From Acidobacteriota bacterium (GTDB lineage: Bacteria > Acidobacteriota > Terriglobia > 2-12-FULL-54-10): a stretch of DNA of 64,000 nucleotides. Below, in pieces: positions 48,669-62,845 of the stretch. Location: positions 24,942 through 88,941 of the forward strand of contig JACPPJ010000014.1 of NCBI GenBank assembly GCA_016191085.1, given 5' to 3'. The notes beneath the pieces are model-generated. The model was not told the origin of the DNA and did not search any database. It worked only from the letters and a program-made list of their open reading frames with translations. Each line of letters starts with the position of its first letter. Position 1 is the first letter of the stretch. Made by a program: the position numbers and the translations under genes.

Positions 48669-49982
48669 ATGGAACAATTGCCGAGTGTCGTGATTGTGGG
48701 CAGACCCAACGTGGGCAAGTCCACGTTGTTCAACCGCATCACCGGCCAGCGGCGCGCGATTGTAGGAGATGAGCCCGGCATCACGCGAGACCGGAACTAC
48801 GGCACAGGCGAATGGCAGGGCAGGTCCTTTCAGCTCGTAGACACCGGCGGCATGATTGCCGGCGACGCCGCGCAAATTCCCACCCAGATTGTGGCACAGG
48901 CCAAGGTGGCCATCGACGATGCCGCCATGGTTATCATGGTCGTGGACGGACGAAGCGAGCTTACCGCCAACGATGTGGAGCTGGCCCGATTGCTCTTGCG
49001 AACCGGGAAGCCACTTGTGCTGGCGGTCAACAAAATCGACACACCCAGACTCGAAGCACAGATCAGCGACTATTTTTCGCTTGGTATCTCGAAGGTGATC
49101 CCCATCTCCGCCGAGCACAGCGCCGGAGTGGACGATCTGCTGGATGAAATTACGGCCGGATTCGAGATTTCAACGGAAGAAGAGCCTGCGAGGGAAGAGA
49201 TCAATGTGGCGATTATCGGCCGCCCCAACGTTGGCAAGTCCACACTGCTGAACCGGCTGGCGGGCGCGGAGCGTTCGATTGTATCGCAGGTGCCCGGAAC
49301 GACTCGCGATGCCGTGGATACTCTCGTCGAGCAGGGCGGGATAGCTTACAGGCTCGTTGACACGGCGGGCATTCGCCGCAAAGGAAAGACGTCTCTCATG
49401 GCGGAAAAACTTAGCGTCGTCATGGCGCGCCGGCACATGCGGCTCTGCGACGTGGCTCTGTTGCTGCTCAGCGCTCCGGACGGCGTCATAGCGCTGGATG
49501 CCACCATCGCCGGTTATGCCAGCGAAAGCGGGAAATCGGTGATCGTGGTGGTGAATAAGTGGGATCAGGTCGAACGCAGCCGCCAAGCGGCGCGCGAGTT
49601 CCTGAATGACATTAACCAAAAGTTCAAGTTCCTGGATTACGCTCCCAAGCTGTTCATCTCCGCCAAGACTGGATACGGGGTCAAGAAGATTTTATCTGAG
49701 GTGAAGGAAGTCTACACATCGCGGCGCACGAGAATCCCTACAGCCGAGCTTAACCGCTTTCTACAGAGCATCGACCTCGAACGGGCCAGCACGCCTTACG
49801 GCAGGCGTCCCAAGATCTATTACATGACGCAGTCGAATGCTTCCCCGCCGACTTTCGTTCTATTCACGGATCAAGCGCGCCGCCTGCATTTCTCTTTTGA
49901 ACGTTTTCTAGTCAACCAAATCCGGAGCAAGTTCGGATTTAGAGGATCTCCCATCATCATTAAACAGCGGATGCATCATTAA
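48669..49982 (+). CDS. der: Ribosome biogenesis GTPase Der
   Basis: Two G domains: 'IVGRPNVGKSTLFNRITGQRRAIVGDEPGITRDRNYG' and 'IIGRPNVGKSTLLNRLAGAERSIVSQVPGTTRDAVDT'; KH-like C-terminus. Confidence 0.97.
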   Translation: MEQLPSVVIVGRPNVGKSTLFNRITGQRRAIVGDEPGITRDRNYGTGEWQGRSFQLVDTGGMIAGDAAQIPTQIVAQAKVAIDDAAMVIMVVDGRSELTANDVELARLLLRTGKPLVLAVNKIDTPRLEAQISDYFSLGISKVIPISAEHSAGVDDLLDEITAGFEISTEEEPAREEINVAIIGRPNVGKSTLLNRLAGAERSIVSQVPGTTRDAVDTLVEQGGIAYRLVDTAGIRRKGKTSLMAEKLSVVMARRHMRLCDVALLLLSAPDGVIALDATIAGYASESGKSVIVVVNKWDQVERSRQAAREFLNDINQKFKFLDYAPKLFISAKTGYGVKKILSEVKEVYTSRRTRIPTAELNRFLQSIDLERASTPYGRRPKIYYMTQSNASPPTFVLFTDQARRLHFSFERFLVNQIRSKFGFRGSPIIIKQRMHH

Positions 49983-49991
49983 GGATTTCTC

Positions 49992-50345
49992 ATGGACTAC
50001 AACGAATTCGTAGTTAGCTCGCCCATGGACGGCACTCGTTTTGAATGCCGCTTCAGCAAGATAATCGTGGGCATCGCCCCCCGTCACAGCGATTCAGTGG
50101 ACGTCAAATTTCTGGTGAATGGAAGACCCGTGTGGGTGGCGGTGCCTCTGCCGGCGCTCGCCGAGTTAGGCAGACGCAATCGTCAGGCGCTGAGCGATCC
50201 CGAGGTTATTGAACTCGCCGCCCTGTCTTTGAGGAAAACGCTCGAAAACGAGGGAGTGCAGGAGGACCGCATGATTGTGCCCTCAGACGAGCGCATCATT
50301 GCGCTTGCGGAAAAGCTTACTTCCAGCAATGGAGCGCCGCGATGA
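49992..50345 (+). CDS. Hypothetical protein
   Basis: 117-aa ORF immediately downstream of der. Confidence 0.6.
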   Translation: MDYNEFVVSSPMDGTRFECRFSKIIVGIAPRHSDSVDVKFLVNGRPVWVAVPLPALAELGRRNRQALSDPEVIELAALSLRKTLENEGVQEDRMIVPSDERIIALAEKLTSSNGAPR

Positions 50346-50448: not shown

Positions 50449-50841
50449 TCACGCTCGAAACTGCGTCGAGCGGCTCAATATTTCCTCTAACGACTGCTCG
50501 GACACCAGTACGTTGCAGCCGGGGCCGCCAAGTTGCCAACCCGAGAGGCGGCCGCGGCGCAGCCATCTATAAATCGTGTCTTCGCTCTTCATGGAGCGAT
50601 ACGCGGCCTCTTTTACACTGATTGTTTTTACTTTTCTCAGATCCAGCAGCGGCGACGCCTCGGAATTTGGAAGCGTTGGTGCCACGGCAGATGCCTTGGT
50701 TGCGGGCGAGGACGCCTGAATTGACGCGACGGCGCCGGTATGAACCGGCCCGGTCTGCGGCTGAACGTTGCGAATGGAAAGCTTACGTATCGGGAGACGG
50801 GGCGTGCCTGGTTTCTTGGAGCGATCTCTTGAACGGATTGC
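50449..50841 (-). CDS. HTH protein with excisionase/MerR-like C-terminus
   Basis: 'TISVKEAAYRSMKSEDTIYRWLRRGRLSGWQLGGPGCNVLVSEQSLEEIL'; start at 50841 or 50862. Confidence 0.65.
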   Translation of the reverse strand, partial: AIRSRDRSKKPGTPRLPIRKLSIRNVQPQTGPVHTGAVASIQASSPATKASAVAPTLPNSEASPLLDLRKVKTISVKEAAYRSMKSEDTIYRWLRRGRLSGWQLGGPGCNVLVSEQSLEEILSRSTQFRA

Positions 50842-50900
50842 CATCTTTTGGACTCTCCACATAGGATTTCGGTATACGCGGCACTTAAGACATGTTTTGC

Positions 50901-51566
50901 TCAGAACGCCGCCAGCGCCGTGGCGCGTGGTGGCTGCGTGGCGGCCGGTTTGCGTAACGTCGGCGTTTCGGCCATTTCTGGTACGCTGCGCCGCGTTGCG
51001 TCGGCGTCATACCAGAACTCTTCGCCGTCGTGCAGGCGAATGCCCGGGCAGCCGCGGAGATCGACGGCAGATTCCTTAGAACCATCATCGGAACCCAGCA
51101 GAGCGGACCGCAGTGCTTCCCGGTCCAGTTCCGTCCGAACCCGGAGATAGCGGTCCAGACCATGTCGCGCGAGCCACTCCTGCGCCGCAGCGGCGTTGTC
51201 CACCGCCAGGGTTCGCGAGCGCCGCGTGCCTAATCGTCCAAAAGCAAGATCCATGGACTTCCGGCCTTGCCCCAGCACCTCTTCGCGGTGCGCCCAGTAG
51301 AAGCATTCGATCTGCTCCTCGAGTTCTTTCTTCGTGTGAGTCACCGGCTGTGAGGCTTCCACCCATTGCTGCTTCAGCACGGCCACGTGCTGCTCAAACT
51401 GGTCTCGCAGCGAACGAAGCTGCCGCTCCATTTCTCCTAAACAAGCCAGCCGCTGATTGACGTCCTCCCAACTGCGCGGCTGGGCGCTGGAAGTTTTCTT
51501 TTTGCGAGAGGTCCGTTCCACCGTAGTTTCTGCTGCACTCGGTTCTGGATTAACTCGTGCGTTCAT
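50901..51566 (-). CDS. Host-nuclease inhibitor Gam family protein (phage Mu Gam-like)
   Basis: N-terminal coiled coil; 'EEQIECFYWAHREEVLGQGRKSMDLAFGRLGTRRSRTLAVDNAAAAQEWLARHGLDRYLRVRTELDREALRSALL'; strong RBS aaaggagcagct before ATG at 51566. Confidence 0.75.
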   Translation of the reverse strand: MNARVNPEPSAAETTVERTSRKKKTSSAQPRSWEDVNQRLACLGEMERQLRSLRDQFEQHVAVLKQQWVEASQPVTHTKKELEEQIECFYWAHREEVLGQGRKSMDLAFGRLGTRRSRTLAVDNAAAAQEWLARHGLDRYLRVRTELDREALRSALLGSDDGSKESAVDLRGCPGIRLHDGEEFWYDADATRRSVPEMAETPTLRKPAATQPPRATALAAF

Positions 51567-51653
51567 AGCTGCTCCTTTTTCACTTTGCGTTGTGTGGTGC
51601 ATTCGTGGTGACCCCGGCCTTGTGTGGTATTCCTGATTGACGGCGAGATGATA

Positions 51654-51669
51654 TAGGTGTTAACATCTA
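51654..51669. promoter_or_regulatory. Putative repressor operator 1
   Basis: TAGGTG-TTAA-CATCTA near-perfect inverted repeat in the gam/repressor intergenic region. Confidence 0.6.
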
Positions 51670-51681
51670 AGAGTGAGCATA

Positions 51682-51697
51682 TAGGTGCAAACACCTA
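51682..51697. promoter_or_regulatory. Putative repressor operator 2
   Basis: TAGGTG-CAAA-CACCTA, perfect 6-bp half sites, centre 28 bp from operator 1. Confidence 0.65.
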
Positions 51698-51714
51698 GTT
51701 GTCAAGAGGAAAAA

Positions 51715-52449
51715 TTGGCTAAAGATTTCTCCTTGCGAATTAAGAGGTTGCGCAAAGCGCTGGGGGTCACGCAGCATGCGCTGGCGCAAAAACTCGGCGT
51801 GCTGCCGTGGGCTGTTGCTTCCTGGGAGCAAGGCCGCTGGGAGCCCTCGGGCGAGCACTACGCACATCTTGCAAAGCTCGCGCCTCCCGACGACGCACAG
51901 TTCTTCTTATCGAAAATTGGAATCGATCGCCAGATGCTGCGCTCTCTCTCGCCGGAACCGCAGCAGGTGCAGTCGCCTGAGATTCGCATCTACACTACGG
52001 AAGATTGGAAACAGGGAACCGAAGATCGTCTCCGATTTCAAATCCAGGTCCCCGTGTTACGAGACGAGGCGGCGGCAGGCACGCCGCGGGAAATCAACGA
52101 GCGGGACGTGGACAGCTTCATCGCGGTGCCATCGAAGTTCGTGCCCAGAGGTCCGGCAGCGTACACCGGAATCTATATTCGCGGCGACTCCATGGAACCC
52201 ATTCTGAGCGAGCGATTCATTGTTGTGGTAGACCACAGCAGCCGCGATCCGCTACGCCTGCGAGGACGAATGGTGGCGGCGCTGGTGCAGGACGGCGTAC
52301 TAGTAAAATGGCTGGCCCGCGAGACTCGTCGCGACAGAATCATCCTGCACTCGCAAAACTCGGCGTACGAGGACATCGTGATTGAATCTCCCGAGACCAA
52401 TCCAATCATCGGCGACATCGTTTTCTGGTGGGGAGTGCAGCGGGGCTGA
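51715..52449 (+). CDS. XRE-family repressor with S24 (LexA/CI-like) peptidase domain
   Basis: HTH 'RIKRLRKALGVTQHALAQKLGVLPWAVASWEQGRWEP'; 'GIYIRGDSMEPIL' (Ser) and 'GVLVKWLARETRRDRIILHSQNSAYEDI' (Lys); TTG start at 51715 has RBS aagagga. Confidence 0.88.
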   Translation: MAKDFSLRIKRLRKALGVTQHALAQKLGVLPWAVASWEQGRWEPSGEHYAHLAKLAPPDDAQFFLSKIGIDRQMLRSLSPEPQQVQSPEIRIYTTEDWKQGTEDRLRFQIQVPVLRDEAAAGTPREINERDVDSFIAVPSKFVPRGPAAYTGIYIRGDSMEPILSERFIVVVDHSSRDPLRLRGRMVAALVQDGVLVKWLARETRRDRIILHSQNSAYEDIVIESPETNPIIGDIVFWWGVQRG

Positions 52450-61907: not shown

Positions 61908-62640
61908 GTGCATCGCAAGGTAAATATCCTACAGTACGTGAAGACCGAATCCGGCTGGACGTGGAAGCCGATTCCGAAAAACGGCAAGAAAAACACGTAT
62001 CAGTGGAGCAGACTCGAAAGCCCGCACCTCTACATCACCTGGCGCGAGCATAACGGACGGCGATACCAGAAAACCGGCTCCACGCCTTCAGAGGCGCTTG
62101 AAGCCGGGCGTCGCAAGGAATTCGAGCTTGCCGGCAGAGCCGTTCTCCAACATGGATGGAAAAACCCAGGTAAAAACAGGTCTCACGATCAGAGAGGCCG
62201 TTGCTGATTTTCTCGAGTTCGTCAAGACCAAGCGCCGCCCGAACACCTACAAGCGATATCGCGCGATCCTGGAACACTTCCGAGAATCTATCCGGGCAGA
62301 TTCCGATGTGTCGGCACTCACTCCTGCTGATATTGACGCTTTCCGGGATTACCGTCTCGGGAAGAAAAATCCTTTCGGAGAGGCAATCACGCCGCGGAAT
62401 GTCAATTACGAGATGGCGACTATCCGGGCGTTCTACTACTGGCTGCAGCGTTTCAGATGCGCCGAACTCTCGAATCCGGCAGCAAAGGTGAAGCCGCTTG
62501 CGGTTACGAGAACGCTCGTAGACGTGTATGAAGAAGAAGAGTTGGAGCGGTTCTTCAATGCCTGTGCGCCGGAGGAACGTGCCATCTTCAAGGCGTTCTA
62601 CTATACAGGATTGCGCGACCAGGAACTTGCGCACTTTTCC
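61908..62640 (+). pseudogene. Tyrosine recombinase/integrase, frameshifted and 3' truncated
   Basis: Frame 1 'YVKTESGWTWKPIPKNGKKNTYQWSRLESPHLYITWREHNGRRYQKTGSTPSEALEAGRRKEFEL' then frame 2 'TIREAVADFLEFVKTKRRPNTYKRYRAILEHFRESI...EERAIFKAFYYTGLRDQELAHF' ending just after box I Arg. Confidence 0.85.
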
Positions 62641-62845
62641 GTTTTGATGACCGCCCGCACGCTCGTGTTCCATGTCGCCGACGTTGAGCGCCAGAATCTC
62701 TCCGTTGCGCGCTCCGGTGTCCCATAGAAGCTGGATGATCGCCCGGTTCCTAACATGCCGCGGGTCGTTCGTTTGCTCCGGGATCGCCGCAAGAAGCTTC
62801 CGATAGCTTTCTATAAAGCGGGACTTTGCAGGCGTTTTCGTTGGT
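62640..62845 (-). pseudogene. Second tyrosine recombinase fragment (box I region only)
   Basis: Minus-strand translation 'PAKSRFIESYRKLLAAIPEQTNDPRHVRNRAIIQLLWDTGARNGEILALNVGDM'; no start, frame lost after. Confidence 0.7.

Follow-up and report, generated by a model that had tools for sequence, protein, structure and literature searches.

A stand-alone repressor, Gam and HTH gene module of Mu-like phage descent, probably domesticated as a damage circuit, in Acidobacteriota

The window, a stretch of 64,000 nucleotides of an Acidobacteriota genome, carries a module of ~2 kb that consists of a gene for a Mu Gam-like protein (gam), a gene for an excisionase-like helix-turn-helix (HTH) protein (hth) and a gene for an S24-type repressor (s24). 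Profile matches place all three genes, surrounded by host genes, where the sequence-only reading had put them, and the layout bears out its description of gam and hth as sharing a strand and diverging from s24. The end of gam (50901) lies less than 60 nt from the likely start of hth (50844). The likely starts of gam, hth and s24 were placed from ribosome-binding sites in the sequence. The genes of the locus are the following.

48669-49982, (+) strand: der, a core gene.
49992-50345, (+) strand: an open reading frame (ORF) of 117 aa between der and the module, without a family match.
50449-50844, (-) strand: hth, encoding an HTH_17, Xis/BldC-like DNA-binding protein; the ORF is open to 50862, with the likely start at ATG 50844.
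50901-51566, (-) strand: gam, encoding a Mu Gam-like DNA-end-binding protein by family; the ORF is open to 51602, with the likely start at ATG 51566 after AAGGAG.
51715-52449, (+) strand: s24, encoding a repressor with XRE/HTH_3 and Peptidase_S24 domains; the ORF is open to GTG 51685, with the likely start at TTG 51715 after AGAGGA.

The module had been described as lying right after der; der is indeed upstream, but the 117-aa ORF intervenes. The neighbours of the module are host genes, namely HpaB-like, PfkB, PNP/MTAP-like, glyoxalase, MeaB, acyl-CoA dehydrogenase, histidine kinase and HD-GYP genes. No homologs of MuA, MuB, portal, terminase or other Mu-phage proteins were detected either in the window or elsewhere on contig C2, and no head, tail or lysis genes were found near the module within the window, in keeping with the earlier remark that no transposase A/B, capsid, tail or lysis gene is visible nearby. 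A search around the module for flanking direct repeats, end inverted repeats or phage-type ends gave none that is convincing. The assembly of the window genome comprises 3.47 Mb and is 88% complete.

Identification of Gam relies on profile matches to PF07352 (69.1 bits against a cut-off of 28.3, E 5.2e-19), to phrog_491, annotated as 'Mu Gam-like end protection' (1.5e-23), and, by profile comparison, to the solved Gam structure 2p2u (7.2e-12). A fold search with the Gam model against the PDB returned no match, so DNA-end binding is deduced here from membership of the sequence family alone. Binding of double-strand DNA ends and a block of RecBCD-type nucleases have been reported for Mu Gam (PMC12407980, PMC8987985), and Gam is most likely the end-protecting partner in the circuit proposed below. 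Scans of viral contigs using the Gam and HTH alignments gave no matches. The sole Gam match in a profile scan of genome contigs, in Psychrobacter, covers residues 16-74 inside a protein of 514 aa and was rejected as a coiled-coil chance match. A further match of 25 bits, in G143, lies against a host-type ORF on the other strand and was judged spurious.

The HTH protein matches HTH_17 (PF12728) at 1.5e-5 and 25.6 bits, just under the cut-off of 27, and the 'excise' family TIGR01764 at 2.2e-5. The N-terminal half is disordered, and the AF2 model is confident over residues 80-130. The best folds found for the model are the phage Xis 4j2n and BldC 6ama (E 0.01-0.03); since the HTH domain is predicted to fold like these proteins, the HTH protein may act as a transcription regulator. 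An integrase partner, as expected for an excisionase, is not found beside hth; a fragment of a tyrosine integrase lies 10 kb from the module and near the contig end (window 62152-62727; phrog_1, 2.7e-22).

The product of s24 combines a Peptidase_S24 domain (PF00717, 1.5e-15) with an HTH_3 domain (PF01381, 4.1e-7). An Ala-Gly cleavage site at residues 131-132 and the pair Ser169 and Lys208 (numbered in the 254-aa ORF) are recognizable, and the LexA-type cleavage site and the Ser/Lys pair are invariant across all seven aligned S24 proteins. The repressor is probably SOS-responsive. Assignment as LexA itself was rejected: the score against TIGR00498 is 26.6 bits, far under the cut-off of 110.95, and the closest relatives are repressors of Mu-like phages. 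Where all module genes are intact s24 is the best conserved of them, with 78% identity between the window genome and G001, and it evolves at the pace of host genes.

Promoter and operator elements are predicted between the likely starts of gam and s24 as follows.

51637-51666, (+) strand: P_s24, a promoter-like TTGACG-N18-TAACAT with an extended -10, directed into s24; a consensus match only.
51654-51669, no strand: predicted operator O1, TAGGTGTTAACATCTA, a 16-bp inverted repeat over the -10 of the s24-side promoter.
51676-51705, (-) strand: P_gam, a sigma-70-type TTGACA-N18-TATGCT directed into gam-hth, its spacer filled by O2.
51682-51697, no strand: predicted operator O2, TAGGTGCAAACACCTA, a 16-bp perfect inverted repeat with a 4-nt centre.

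The promoter-plus-operator pattern of P_gam was reached in none of 100 shuffles, and the same arrangement is present in G001 and at C5 and C64 of the window genome. From the position of O1, we infer autoregulation of s24. The 16-mer of O1 is identical in the s24-gam region of G001, where the sites are near-identical overall, and the recognition region of the G001 repressor is likewise nearly the same as that of the window. In G003, G004 and family f14 other palindromes accompany diverged N-terminal halves of the repressor, replaced outright in G004, so repressor and operator appear to change together. In G004 (L008 4793-5605) the DNA-binding half has given way to an HTH domain of a very different kind, while identity in the C-terminal sensor half is still 80%, and the palindrome near this repressor differs (ACTTGTATTATACAAGT). 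A pair of genes that resembles HicA/HicB by eye follows s24 directly in G001 (L006 13534-14067); beyond it lies a 17-codon copy of the end of s24, as if an insertion had duplicated the gene end.

The window genome harbors five exact TAGRTGNNNNCAYCTA sites, two in the module and one each at C5, C23 and C63, against none for a control with the reversed pattern. The C5 site was found by the operator alone and is directly upstream of an hth paralog. A third hth copy, at C64, was found by an HTH-family profile search, and a promoter-plus-operator match obtained without protein information lies 77 nt before that profile match, in the promoter of the gene. Both solo hth genes are preceded by TTGACA and the same operator, the end of which is ~50 nt before the start codon, and the window genome thus has three operator-linked copies of hth: that of the module, that at C5 and that at C64. 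This convergence at C5 and C64 is the strongest single piece of evidence for a repressor that controls more than its own operon. The module would accordingly command a small, putative regulon: outside it, the operator occurs at only a few sites of the genome, of which two are directly upstream of solo hth paralogs. The match at C63:45878 falls within a permease ORF and was dismissed as fortuitous. At C5, the solo hth with its operator has an N-terminal fragment of a phage tail tape-measure protein about 1 kb away (L042 10579-10959; phrog_8462, 4.2e-10).

The site at C23 lies in a region (positions 1-560; L043 1-560) that also has a CRISPR array. A promoter, TTGGCA-N17-TATACT, whose spacer contains a perfect S24-type operator, points toward the array ~280 bp away at the contig edge, of which three full 37-nt repeats and a partial one are present. 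No other array with this repeat was found in the seven family genomes. A role of the repressor in CRISPR control was weighed; the end of the repeat, ...AGTGAAAC, suggests, as judged from what is generally known of such repeats, that the array reads the opposite way, so the promoter may be antisense to the array or may serve a decayed gene.

The origin of the module is apparent from its relatives in phages. A scan of viral sequences with S24 gave 80 loci; the full-length S24 relatives that come closest among viruses (28-36% identity) are on six contigs, each of which has MuA next to the repressor on the opposite strand, and a related prophage in G330 is arranged likewise. The viral contig L146 has the order MuA, MuB, two small genes, gam, gemA and HTH_17, and in a prophage of G206, HTH_17 comes after a gene with weak GemA likeness. 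A gemA gene (PF06252, above cut-off) is still present in three relatives of the window genome's family, f1 (G001, G003 and G004), and in G001 and G004 the order gam-gemA-hth equals that of L146; from the window genome gemA is missing. Because the related repressors are linked to MuA, the relatives retain gemA, and the order agrees with L146 and with Mu, the gam-gemA-hth unit is, on comparison of gene order, the distal half of an early operon of the Mu type from which A and B have been deleted and in which hth stands in the place of mor. By the same comparison, the trio of s24, gam and hth derives from the early control region of a transposable phage related to Mu. The Gam and S24 trees place the f1 and f14 sequences near those of Mu-like prophages, with weak support and long branches. 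Mu-like prophages lie in four other genomes of the class, at L018, L019, L020 and L034; all four have MuA and the first three have gam.

The prevalence of the module was assessed in a class sample of 399 genomes, in which Gam and S24 relatives were counted. Gam relatives are present in nine genomes, comprising four of f1, one of family f14, three Mu-like prophages and the match judged spurious. S24 relatives (E 1e-30) are present in seven, comprising four of f1, two of f14 and the G330 prophage. Recurrence of the gam-HTH-S24 synteny without phage genes, which had been proposed as a check, is therefore found in two families, f1 and f14, but not in many genomes. In both families the trio occurs without a transposase, and not only inside full Mu-like prophages: no MuA, MuB, portal or terminase homologs were found at the corresponding loci of the f1 and f14 relatives, and no transposase, integrase or packaging gene adjoins the module in f1, except unrelated insertion sequences in G003.

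Within f1, the completeness of the module varies. In G001 and G004, s24 diverges from gam-gemA-hth beside common ZnuA/ZnuB-like and porin genes. G003 has s24 and gemA, with gam broken next to an IS1595-type transposase and a contig that ends before any hth. G002 lacks gam and retains the N-terminal part of s24 and the last part of gemA, together with hth. In G005 and G006, gam and s24 are absent and only hth is left, its position at the ZnuB locus unchanged. Altogether gam is decayed or gone in four of the seven f1 genomes (broken in G003; absent in G002, G005 and G006), and hth, kept in six of seven, is the most widely persisting gene of the module. Judging by the losses of gam and s24, about half of the sampled family can dispense with the full circuit. 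In f14, s24 diverges from gam-hth in G353, G341, which belongs to another genus, has hth and the final part of gam with flanking genes that match those of G353, and s24 lies at a contig edge in G210. To judge from the loci shared by G001, G004, G005 and G006 and within f14, the history of the module is one of vertical inheritance with repeated loss. The window copy is located elsewhere than the ZnuB-side locus of G001 and G004, and because of this difference it may have undergone transposition or transfer within the family. Near the f14 module lies a lysis-type cassette (L154 2833-4628, L017 119-2174) with a glucosaminidase endolysin, a lipoprotein, and small and membrane proteins. No S24-type operator was found upstream of it; the cassette is kept in two genera with dN/dS of 0.21-0.35, and its endolysin and membrane protein match those of the Mu-like viral contigs L075-L078.

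Selection on the module was gauged from pairwise counts of dN/dS, with the reservation that many pairs are dS-saturated, between-genera ratios partly so, and exact values therefore rough: with saturated pairs left out, within-family pairs of s24, gam and gemA give about 0.1-0.37; s24 gives 0.12 between the window genome and G001 and 0.147 between G353 and G210 (dS 0.98, unsaturated); and gam gives 0.17-0.37 within f1, faster than host genes, for which controls give 0.06-0.15. The sequence-only reading had asked whether dN/dS would show neutral decay; in the intact copies, s24 and gam are under purifying selection, and intact frames over such distances are not, on these counts, a picture of neutral decay.

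The module is probably a part of a Mu-like phage's early control region that has been domesticated and retained as a repressor-controlled damage circuit. In the course of its descent, A, B and the small genes would have been lost from the ancestral region, gemA would have been lost in the window, and the HTH gene would occupy the position of mor. In the resting cell, the S24 repressor is envisaged to bind O1 and O2 and to shut its own promoter and the gam-hth promoter, as well as the promoters of the two solo hth paralogs. On DNA damage, RecA filaments would stimulate the repressor to cut itself between Ala131 and Gly132, in the manner of LexA and CI. Gam would then be made, coat double-strand ends and slow RecBCD/AddAB-type resection, while the several copies of the HTH protein that are made would bind DNA and change the expression of host targets. 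Since hth is more widely retained than gam, the HTH regulator may be the main retained output of the module. In our view, the host is no less likely to keep the module for the regulator than for Gam, as hth remains where gam has gone in three genomes and the window genome has three copies of it.

The sequence-only reading had left a choice between a remnant control region of a Mu-like element and a domesticated, SOS-responsive module for DNA-end protection; it had noticed neither the operator with its putative regulon nor the ancestral gemA. Mu-like descent holds, as does retention under purifying selection without phage replication or structural genes; a purely end-protecting function fares less well, gam having decayed in several relatives and hth persisting more widely. 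The module should be called a domesticated phage circuit and not yet a new host repair system. The caution is due to its rarity, its partial loss in the family and the position of the window copy away from the ancestral locus.

Slow decay of a defective prophage remnant without host use, its ORFs persisting as the repressor must silence harmful early genes, appears unlikely. Truncation or loss of gam, gemA and s24 in G002, G003, G005 and G006, the disappearance of gemA from the window genome and the faster evolution of gam relative to host genes are in its favour, whereas the ORFs are intact with low dN/dS across genera at near-saturated dS, the locus and gene order are common within two families, and hth remains intact after the loss of gam and the repressor in G005 and G006 and has three operator-linked copies in the window genome. 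The strong conservation of the repressor where all genes are intact (78% between the window genome and G001, at the pace of host genes), together with Mu-like prophages in other families of the class (G206, G152, G095 and G330), could also reflect superinfection immunity, in which the repressor is kept to silence incoming Mu-like phages and gam-hth are passengers. This explanation is very unlikely, given that conservation resides in the sensor half while the DNA-reading half and the operators vary between genera, the former being replaced altogether in G004, that the repressor is lost in relatives keeping hth, and that the operator also precedes the solo hth genes.

A still-mobile element, or a satellite borrowing the transposase of a helper phage, merits hardly any credence: neither flanking direct repeats nor inverted repeats at the ends are conspicuous, the f1 modules adjoin no gene for a transposase, an integrase or packaging apart from the unrelated insertion sequences of G003, and a locus in common within two families speaks for vertical descent, even though the window copy is at a different locus from G001 and G004 and the solo hth of C5 adjoins the tape-measure fragment. 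Beyond the domesticated circuit preferred here, a more far-reaching possibility, on balance doubtful, is that a lysogeny switch has turned into a private branch of the host damage response, in which a self-cleaving repressor, its operator specific to the clade, commands a Ku-like protein that binds DNA ends and dispersed, phage-derived HTH regulators, perhaps along with a CRISPR-side promoter. If true, this branch would constitute a second, LexA-independent damage regulon of phage origin.

Comparison with known systems clarifies what is shared and what is not. The closest parallel is the early region of Mu and other transposable phages (c, ner A B ... gam ... gemA mor), in which a repressor is likewise divergent from gam, followed by gemA and a DNA-binding regulator; S24-type repressors beside MuA in viral contigs extend the likeness. 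Unlike that region, the module lacks A, B and the late genes as well as, in the window, gemA; its last gene is HTH_17/Xis-like and not a Mor homolog, it is vertically inherited, and its operator recurs at solo hth genes. LexA and lambda-type CI (Peptidase_S24) have in common with the repressor an HTH plus an S24 domain, the Ala-Gly site, the Ser/Lys pair and an operator over promoters, but the module repressor falls far below the LexA family threshold and has its nearest kin in Mu-like phages. The HTH protein shares a predicted domain fold with winged HTH proteins of the Xis, BldC and MerR types, from which it differs by the lack of an integrase partner, by its Mor position and by its multiple operator-linked copies.

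Chromosomal gam homologs that belong to defective prophages are already on record (d'Adda di Fagagna 2003, as cited in PMC8987985), and movement of gam back and forth between phages and their hosts has been suggested in a review (PMC8987985). Those bacterial homologs and Mu Gam (PF07352) belong to the same protein family as the Gam described here; in contrast to the former, the present gam lies outside a recognisable prophage, with its own S24 repressor and dispersed operator-linked genes. Exapted mobile elements and grounded prophages (PMC8987985, PMC6379469) resemble the module in their immobilised phage genes, purifying selection and vertical inheritance, but here the part that is kept is a lysogeny switch with DNA-end genes and not a tailocin, gene transfer agent or toxin. 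No description of a stand-alone repressor-gam module was found in a literature search. In the case described here, switch, operator, gam and regulator have stayed together under selection in two families, with the phage itself gone. As further genes carry the operator outside the module, the regulon claim is directly testable. If confirmed, the module would be an example of a phage lysogeny switch becoming a branch of the host damage response, with a Ku-like protein as one output.

An interplay with defence systems that sense antagonism at DNA ends, such as Gabija, is also predicted. Gabija is licensed by either Gam or GemA of a Mu-like phage and has been proposed to sense RecBCD antagonism at DNA ends (preprint, PMC12407980); such licensing by Gam and GemA is consistent with an action of both proteins at DNA ends.
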